64,000 nucleotides of DNA from Hydractinia symbiolongicarpus (Eukaryota > Cnidaria > Hydrozoa > Anthoathecata > Hydractiniidae). A program made the position numbers and the translations under genes. This document shows positions 19,440-20,771 of this stretch, piece after piece. Numbering within the stretch: position 1 is the stretch's first letter; the number at the start of each line of letters is the position of its first letter. Where the stretch lies: assembly GCF_029227915.1 (NCBI RefSeq), contig NC_079888.1, positions 14,555,001 through 14,619,000 on the forward strand, given 5' to 3'. The notes under the pieces were generated by a model. It did not search any database and was not told where the DNA came from. It worked only from the letters and a program-made list of their open reading frames with translations.

Positions 19440-19490
19440 TATTAACAGGATACCATTACAAAGTTGCAGGATAATCGCGAAATCCCTTTG

Positions 19491-19572
19491 CCTCGGCAGC
19501 CCAGGGACTCGAACCCGGGATCGTCGCATCAGATGCACCGCAGGCTCTTATCCACTGAGCCACGTCGTCGGC
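19491..19572 (-). repeat. tRNA-like Pol III promoter region, unit 1 (repeats every 286 bp)
   Basis: The minus strand has a canonical A box TGGCTCAGTGG (19552-19562) and B box GGTTCGAGTCC (19505-19515). The D stem GCTC/GAGC pairs, and the T arm keeps four of five pairs. The anticodon area (GGTGC-ATCTGAT-GCGAC) can fold with loop anticodon CTG but has extra bases before it, and the acceptor ends pair poorly. I read it as a tRNA-derived promoter, not a tRNA gene. Copies occur at +286, +572 and +858. Confidence 0.75.
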
Positions 19573-19577
19573 AAAAA

Positions 19578-19645
19578 GGATTCGTGAGAATCCAGACAAC
19601 TTTGGTATTTCGGCTAACAAGCCTTCGTCAGCGGATACCAGAGCC
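19578..19645 (-). ncRNA. Hammerhead ribozyme candidate (type I), unit 1
   Basis: Minus strand, 5' to 3'. The stem I strand (GUAUCCG) precedes the core CUGACGA (19625-19631). Stem II is GGCU-UGUU-AGCC, followed by GAAA (19608-19611), a short stem III with loop, and the cleavage triplet GUC. The stem I partner UGGAU pairs as U-G, G-C, G-C, A-U, U-A. Predicted cleavage falls between 19595 and 19594. Oddity: an extra A lies between CUGACGA and stem II. A competing TGGTAT/ATACCA pairing brackets the core. Confidence 0.75.
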
Positions 19646-19863
19646 AGTATTGAGCACTGCAGGAACTCTGGGGCAGCTCGAGCTATATATATTCCAATGT
19701 GGAGAGCAATTGTGAGTGCATATCATATTAACAGGATACCATTACAAAGTTGCAGGATAATCGCGAAATCCCTTTGCCTCGGCAGCCCAGGGACTCGAAC
19801 CCGGGATCGTCGCATCAGATGCACCGCAGGCTCTTATCCACTGAGCCACGTCGTCGGCAAAAA

Positions 19864-19931
19864 GGATTCGTGAGAATCCAGACAACTTTGGTATTTCGGC
19901 TAACAAGCCTTCGTCAGCGGATACCAGAGCC
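19864..19931 (-). ncRNA. Hammerhead ribozyme candidate, unit 2
   Basis: Same sequence as unit 1 in the core and stems, 286 bp downstream on the map. Predicted cleavage lies between 19881 and 19880. Confidence 0.75.
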
Positions 19932-20149
19932 AGTATTGAGCACTGCAGGAACTCTGGGGCAGCTCGAGCTATATATATTCCAATGTGGAGAGCAATTGTG
20001 AGTGCATATCATATTAACAGGATACCATTACAAAGTTGCAGGATAATCGCGAAATCCCTTTGCCTCGGCAGCCCAGGGACTCGAACCCGGGATCGTCGCA
20101 TCAGATGCACCGCAGGCTCTTATCCACTGAGCCACGTCGTCGGCAAAAA

Positions 20150-20217
20150 GGATTCGTGAGAATCCAGACAACTTTGGTATTTCGGCCAACAAGCCTTCGT
20201 CAGCGGATACCAGAGCC
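20150..20217 (-). ncRNA. Hammerhead ribozyme candidate, unit 3
   Basis: Core as in unit 1. The variant base (gccaac for gctaac on the plus strand) lies in loop II, which reads UGUU in units 1-2 and UGGC-like here with a shifted pair. The stem II closing pair U-A becomes a mismatch, so stem II is 3 bp plus loop. Confidence 0.65.
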
Positions 20218-20435
20218 AGTATTGAGCACTGCAGGAACTCTGGGGCAGCTCGAGCTATATATATTCCAATGTGGAGAGCAATTGTGAGTGCATATCATAT
20301 TAACAGGATACCATTACAAAGTTGCAGGATAATCGCGAAATCCCTTTGCCTCGGCAGCCCAGGGACTCGAACCCGGGATCGTCGCATCAGATGCACCGCA
20401 GGCTCTTATCCACTGAGCCACGTCGTCGGCAAAAA

Positions 20436-20503
20436 GGATTCGTGAGAATCCAGACAACTTTGGTATTTCGGCCAACAAGCCTTCGTCAGCGGATACCAGA
20501 GCC
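20436..20503 (-). ncRNA. Hammerhead ribozyme candidate, unit 4
   Basis: Same as unit 3, including the gccaac variant. It is the copy nearest the Penelope-like element. Confidence 0.65.
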
Positions 20504-20614
20504 AGTATTGAGCACTGCAGGAACTCTGGGGCAGCTCGAGCTATATATATTCCAATGTGGAGAGCAATTGTGAGTGCATATCATATTAACAGGATACCAT
20601 TACAAAGTTGCAGG

Positions 20615-20771
20615 ATATATATATATATATATATATATATATATATATATATATATATATATATATATATATATATATATATATATATATATATATATAT
20701 ATATATATATATATATATATATATATATATATATATATATATATATATATATATATATATATATATATATA
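20615..20771. repeat. (AT)n microsatellite, about 157 bp
   Basis: Uninterrupted tract joining the truncated fifth tandem unit to the left arm of the Penelope-like element. Confidence 0.97.

Follow-up and report, generated by a model that had tools for sequence, protein, structure and literature searches.

A 286-bp tandem repeat joining a Pol III-type head to a hammerhead-type motif in Hydractinia symbiolongicarpus, and its possible mobilisation by a Penelope-like element

The locus and its repeat unit

The window analysed here, a 64-kb stretch of the Hydractinia symbiolongicarpus genome, contains a tandem array of 286-bp units located about 155 bp from a truncated Penelope-like element, with (TA)n tracts around both (Table 1). 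In addition, it contains pieces of a tyrosine-kinase-like gene (PF07714, 41124-43136), a Nidogen-like domain (PF06119, 36522-37037), a cysteine-rich ShK-like domain on the minus strand (PF01549, 50941-51150), an ORF of TTPSVVD repeats over a 21-bp/63-bp tandem repeat (51478-52041) and a 102-bp tandem repeat (44395-44623) within the long ORF 43859-44701. An Rfam tRNA match of 41.4 bits on the minus strand (3399-3467) is not called by ARAGORN, and a weak RT match below the Pfam cut-off lies nearby (3027-3293).

An initial sequence-only reading of this DNA had placed the tandem units at 19441-20616, which agrees closely with the interval and the period of 286 returned by TRF. Compared with copy 1, copies 2-4 show one or two base differences, and units elsewhere in the genome measure 284-285 bp. 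The unit is numbered along the minus strand, with nt 1 as the base that follows the T run. On this scale, the boxes begin at nt 11 (A) and nt 58 (B) and the CTGACGA core at nt 228; the predicted cut falls after nt 264 and a 6-bp hairpin precedes five T at 282-286. Open frames in the unit span about 90-105 aa only and encode neither an RT nor a GIY-YIG endonuclease. The neighbouring Penelope-like element lacks its RT part, and its endonuclease frame matches PF01541 with an E-value of 7.6e-4 and 20.2 bits (cut-off 22.6), with 99 relatives in the protein database, the best of them 93% identical.

Table 1. Coordinates of the array, the adjoining Penelope-like element and their parts within the window.
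Feature	Position	Strand	Basis or remark
Tandem array, 4.1 units x 286 bp	19434-20617	-	TRF, 99% matches
Array in transcript order	unit nt 100-286; 20430-20145; 20144-19859; 19858-19573; nt 1 to about 134-139	-	
Full unit (nt 1 = 19858, nt 286 = 19573)	19573-19858	-	one putative Pol III transcription unit
Order in unit: head, TA patches, putative ribozyme, hairpin, T5	19573-19858	-	sequence
A box TGGCTCAGTGG	19838-19848; copies 19552-19562, 20124-20134, 20410-20420	-	strict pattern
B box GGTTCGAGTCC	19791-19801; copies 19505-19515, 20077-20087, 20363-20373	-	strict pattern
Two TA-rich patches (unit nt 130-139, 166-175) either side of an AC-rich stretch	19684-19729	-	
Hammerhead-type motif	19587-19640; copies 19873-19926, 20159-20212, 20445-20498	-	
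T5, putative Pol III terminator behind the 6-bp hairpin	19573-19577; copies 19859-19863, 20145-20149, 20431-20435	-	
(TA)n flank at array 3' end	19257-19442	.	TRF
(TA)n between array and Penelope copy	20615-20771	.	TRF
Penelope-like element, truncated; 745-bp inverted arms, 100% identical (20772-21516, 22654-23398)	20772-23398	-	
GIY-YIG endonuclease frame of Penelope copy	22103-22678	-	191 aa, stop to stop
Penelope ribozyme core, lower arm	20798-20832	-	
Penelope ribozyme core, upper arm	23338-23372	+	
(TA)n at far side of Penelope copy	23399-23683	.	TRF

The Pol III-type head, the terminator and the hammerhead-type motif

Four perfect pairs of A and B boxes are detected with strict patterns, all on the minus strand of the array (A at 19562, 19848, 20134 and 20420; B at 19515, 19801, 20087 and 20373), as the sequence-only reading had proposed for each unit. 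No strict A+B pair occurs outside the array on either strand of the 64-kb window, and none arose in 200 windows simulated with a first-order Markov model. The same reading described the head as tRNA-like. The boxes sustain this description, but no tRNA is called on the units by ARAGORN (at its bacterial-code setting) or by the Rfam tRNA model, and the label is one that only the A and B boxes confer. In a genomic query with the head only, for a parent tRNA or an independent SINE, the rows listed (40 of 106 candidates scored) fall at known array places. Features shared with tRNA-derived SINEs are the two internal boxes and a T-run terminator, with a T run of T3 only in 10 of 77 units; the head is without recognisable tRNA homology.

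The T5 tract, the sole run of at least four T within the unit, lies immediately between the putative ribozyme and the head of the following unit. Among the 77 units of the window and of L009-L044 that fit the flanking pattern, the run is T4 in 52, T5 in 15 and T3 in 10. Because the terminator abuts the next head, an ordinary Pol III transcript would comprise a single unit whose ribozyme is close to the 3' end, and self-cleavage of such a transcript would be expected to remove about 22 nt. It had been suggested earlier that array transcripts could self-cleave into 286-nt monomers; this does not fit an ordinary Pol III transcript, with its one unit and one ribozyme. Since the only T run of this length follows the ribozyme, 286-nt monomers or circles would need read-through or another polymerase. 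The many passages through the T run in the tandem inserts make it probable that they were copied from a circular or read-through template.

The hammerhead-type motif was defined by a descriptor consisting of CUGANGA, stem II, GAAA, a short stem III, NUH and a stem I of at least four pairs. Within the 64 kb, this descriptor matches the four units only, and simulated windows gave two matches in 150 total. Stem I comprises five pairs and stem II four, stem III is short, and the core bases are complete in the units of the window; cleavage is predicted between 19595 and 19594, the same junction that had been named before. The type I hammerhead layout assigned from the letters stands as far as the core, the three helices and covariation among copies are concerned, but it is without a covariance-model match: the Rfam hammerhead models find nothing at gathering level in the window, the array or a single ribozyme, and nothing on the array even at E up to 10. 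Likewise, the five pairs of stem I are intact in the window, but the compensation ascribed to them is seen only versus other copies. An extra unpaired A, also found in the Penelope copies, lies between the core and stem II. Among seven diverged copies (L037-L040, L042-L044), core bases are altered in five (L038, L039, L040, L043, L044). The layout, the core and the three helices are consistent with a retrozyme, a class with type I hammerheads in tandem units of ~150-450 bp.

The minimum-energy prediction for this segment is a rod that buries the core, with -18 kcal/mol for 61 nt or, including the terminator hairpin, -25 kcal/mol for 75 nt, and the hammerhead as drawn is far weaker (-4 to -6); the terminator hairpin competes with stem I. 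This stable alternative, the absence of an Rfam hammerhead match and findings on the Anolis Penelope, whose hammerhead cuts only with protein present and whose insertion in vitro is unaffected by ribozyme mutants (PMC11167929), lend some weight to a non-catalytic motif, that is, a Penelope-derived RNA signal (a binding site or rod hairpin) kept for recognition by the protein. Such a role, which would be compatible with mobilisation by Penelope, is considered the less probable one in view of the full core in the window units and the pattern of changes among copies. In the first 8 related rows, pairing is retained at 89.4% for the hammerhead versus 88.3% for the rod, with two doubly changed pairs versus one. 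On 22 matches (13 distinct), 91.1% of the hammerhead cells are paired, three pairs are doubly changed, one each in stems I, II and III, and the covariation score is equalled by 1 of 500 shuffles. The rod, on the larger copy set, shows 85.5% pairing, one doubly changed pair and a score equalled by 421 of 500 shuffles, although this larger alignment (A2) was fitted to the hammerhead and is hence biased toward it. As a conserved structure, the rod was rejected, as copies keep it no better than shuffles do. Related copies from the same genome appear to favour the hammerhead over the rod, and hammerhead activity is likely.

Insert ends, genomic copies and the Penelope partner

Searches of the genome with the array returned at least 58 match rows (40 of 70 candidates scored) and searches with a single unit at least 131 (40 of 68 candidates scored). 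The units are mostly 95-100% identical at unlinked loci, and inserts occur on 12 contigs (C2-C9, C11-C14). One small stretch, L086 (G000:C5:17013300-17014200), holds a fragment from the ribozyme core to the A box amid sequence unlike the remaining unit. In L025 and L026 (G000:C14:1976000-1991500), one and the same truncated insert recurs at intervals of about 3 kb, and the segment around it is seemingly tandemly duplicated.

Ends were mapped on 36 stretches, which are all places found with the array query apart from the window. With the window included, the end count comprises 28 non-redundant loci with 35 arms. It leaves aside L037-L040 and L042-L044, which are diverged and have uncertain limits, L019 and the repeats in L025/L026, which are DNA duplicates, and the small stretches L085, L086 and L088-L090. 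The 5' ends are scattered. At the 3' side, 26 of the 35 arms end at nt 139 or 174-175 and nine elsewhere. For the 21 single arrays, the end is at nt 174-175 in 11, at nt 139 in two and elsewhere in eight (L020, L021, L024, L030, L032, L034, L035, L036). The remaining seven of the 28 loci are inverted arrays, all head-to-head (L009, L010, L011, L013, L015, L016, L028); six of them have one arm at 139 and the other at 175, and in L028 the arms end at 91 and 139. With independent choice of site by each arm, six discordant pairs have a probability of about 3e-4 at the site rates of single arrays and of 0.016 at equal use of both sites. These 3' ends are placements by BLAST, and the true junctions lie somewhere within the TA patches (about 130-139 and 166-175), 36 nt apart; they are imprecise because patch and flank are both TA-rich. 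The 3' flank of most inserts is a TA repeat, and most young inserts end in TA repeats.

Spread of a satellite-like array through DNA duplication or unequal exchange in (TA)n, with the promoter and ribozyme as relics, would account for the clear DNA duplicates with the same flank (L018/L019 and four inserts in L025 and L026). As an explanation of the whole family it is very improbable, since scattered 5' truncations, two preferred 3' ends and mostly 95-100% identity across 12 contigs are typical of reverse transcription.

A link to Penelope, absent from the sequence-only reading, is suggested by these ends. Inverted arms, head-to-head order and, on one inverted pLTR, a 3'-terminal tail of 31 bp are described for Penelope in the available part of PMC3846280. 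With the purified Anolis Penelope protein, AT-rich DNA is cut and both of its strands are extended, and reverse transcription starts internally, at two adjacent positions that delimit the tail (PMC11167929). The array inserts appear to combine the same traits: inverted head-to-head arms, ends at two sites (a 'tail') and an AT-rich target. Local Penelope copies have either a short 3' end or a long one with a tail of about 43 nt. Among four inverted Penelope pairs examined, that of the window is short/short and three read as short/long, namely L075, L076 with L077 (end read as short) and a pair on C7 (L015 with L079) with partial interior sequence. Array nt 130-175 resembles the local Penelope tail better than any of 5000 mononucleotide shuffles when the whole stretch is compared, to which TA-richness contributes, and 53 of 5000 shuffles are as good for the AC-rich part alone, the stretches having been picked after the sequences were seen.

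The putative ribozyme provides a second connection. The core CTGATGAAGGCTTGTTAGCCGAAATA occurs in each Penelope arm, within a 26-nt block that matches the array at 25 of 26 positions. Across the 480.9-Mb genome (76 contigs), the exact core CTGANGAAGGCTTGTTAGCCGAAA is present 95 times and its reversed control is absent; the variable base, counted by eye, is C in 73, T, the Penelope letter, in 21 and G in one. Viral and prokaryotic collections contain no exact core. Model R1, generated from array-type copies, matches the Penelope cores weakly (22.2 bits, E 0.0037), and the array ribozyme differs from local Penelope copies in having a 5-bp stem I at the GUC site. Compared with Penelope-like elements that carry minimal hammerheads, a 24-nt ribozyme core with one variable base, head-to-head arms, an optional tail and AT-rich targets are alike, whereas the array unit has no RT or endonuclease and has a Pol III head.

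The genome also offers a potential source of enzyme. The endonuclease is 97-100% identical at no fewer than seven places including the window, in one of them within an 847-aa open frame, as found by a genome search with at least 106 matches (150 of 173 candidates scored). Additionally, RT and GIY-YIG matches, each slightly below its Pfam cut-off, lie in a frame of 487 aa in L078, and the same genome thus appears to contain a credible Penelope partner. Three arrays adjoin a Penelope core (the window, C7:23685101-23686284 and C13:9368840-9369237), and simple arithmetic on 28 array loci and 16 Penelope loci, the latter being the 21 T cores grouped by eye, gives about 0.004 expected by chance within 2 kb. 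A common preference for (TA)n may account for this adjacency.

An Sm-alpha-like SINE/retrozyme could also have been moved by a LINE, with the TA patches reflecting (TA)n priming or microhomology repair and the inversions reflecting L1-type twin priming. Its make-up of tRNA and hammerhead is likewise that of the published Sm-alpha and Sj-alpha, and Nematostella repeats with 15-bp LINE-like target-site duplications are described in the available part of PMC4918200. The TA-rich patches would favour priming by any enzyme, which would explain two sites; this is a weak point of the Penelope reading, as the two 3' ends are patches where any (TA)n-primed enzyme might start. Nevertheless, a LINE origin is judged unlikely. 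In nine inserts whose 3' flank lacks a long (TA)n tract, a search for target-site duplications gave no common flanking word >6 bp. L1 twin priming is unlike arms that both repeat the same unit sequence, and the longer inverted loci repeat one unit sequence in both arms, which leaves inverted multi-unit pairs unexplained, as is the use of different sites per arm in six of seven inverted loci. The core common to array and Penelope and the adjacency at three loci also count against a LINE. It is the arm discordance and the inverted layout only that would point to Penelope in particular.

Proposed mobilisation and relation to known elements

The preferred reading, with a probability of about 0.7, is that the array is a non-autonomous retrozyme/SINE, promoted by Pol III and copied in trans by the local Penelope protein. 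The retrozyme/SINE hybrid postulated at the outset is retained here, since the tandem copies are scattered over the genome and combine a head of Pol III type with a core of hammerhead type. To the anatomy, the family, the end pattern and the candidate partner, which the genome sequence establishes, the proposal adds Pol III transcription, cleavage, a circle, binding by the Penelope protein and priming of both ends on one RNA as proposed steps. Pol III would start at the head and normally stop at the T run, yielding an RNA of one unit that carries the ribozyme close to the 3' end, and occasional read-through, or another polymerase acting on the array, would produce multimers. The hammerhead, perhaps assisted by the Penelope protein, would cut these multimers to unit-length RNA, which a host RNA ligase could circularise. 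Next, the Penelope RT-endonuclease would bind the circular or multimeric RNA through the tail-like AC-rich stretch and cut (TA)n on both strands, whereupon the two DNA ends would prime on a single RNA, at its two TA patches. Polymerases circling the template several times would leave two head-to-head tandem arrays, and priming by one strand only would leave a single array, as in the window. The use of a single RNA by both DNA ends would explain why the arms avoid the same site. This full version, a SINE that parasitises Penelope and whose head-to-head array pairs arise when both cut ends prime on one circular, ribozyme-made RNA, falls slightly short of even odds.

The Anolis assay also tempers the proposal. 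There, RT starts at a site that lacks homology to the cut DNA and does not differ by strand (PMC11167929), and the TA-matched pattern of the arrays, with one site per arm, fits neither this non-homology nor this strand indifference. The strand result slightly lowers the odds for Penelope mobilisation from 0.72.

With regard to known elements, the composite had been regarded as possibly undescribed, which does not hold for this type of composite: Sm-alpha repeats of Schistosoma mansoni are SINE-like, related to tRNA-Gln and equipped with hammerheads, according to the available parts of PMC2770079 and PMC4918200. As far as these descriptions allow a comparison, Sm-alpha/Sj-alpha and the array are alike as short SINE-like repeats that join a tRNA-related head to a hammerhead. 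They are unlike in that Sm-alpha is called as tRNA-Gln by a tRNA gene finder, whereas the array head has degenerated too far for the finders applied here, and in the Penelope-type insertion signature, which the same descriptions do not mention for Sm-alpha/Sj-alpha. Metazoan non-LTR retrozymes of corals, mussels and axolotl, as portrayed in the available part of PMC7229834, are dispersed tandem repeats whose units span 150-450 bp and carry type I hammerheads; they give circular RNAs of about 170-400 nt, and Penelopes are named there as a strong candidate for their mobilisation. The mobilising enzyme is left open in that part, whereas the insert ends described here point to Penelope; the terms 'pol III', 'polymerase III' and 'SINE' are absent from the paper's main text (PMC7229834). 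Classical tRNA-derived SINEs, described in the available part of PMC7245038 as mobilised by LINEs, share the Pol III boxes, the T-run terminator and the borrowed enzyme, in contrast to the ribozyme, the tandem multimers and the Penelope-type ends of the array. Open-access titles and abstract openings, covered in part and exclusive of subscription papers and preprints, hold no report of an insertion signature linking a retrozyme with Penelope. The new part thus appears to be this signature, the composition of the repeat being known.

If the Penelope reading is correct, the enzyme that moves an animal retrozyme would be identified and, in the full version, a circular template would be readable in the genome sequence; an assay with purified protein is available from a relative (PMC11167929). 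The array pairs would provide a natural record of how inverted Penelope inserts form, and SINE parasitism would extend beyond LINEs to Penelope-like elements.
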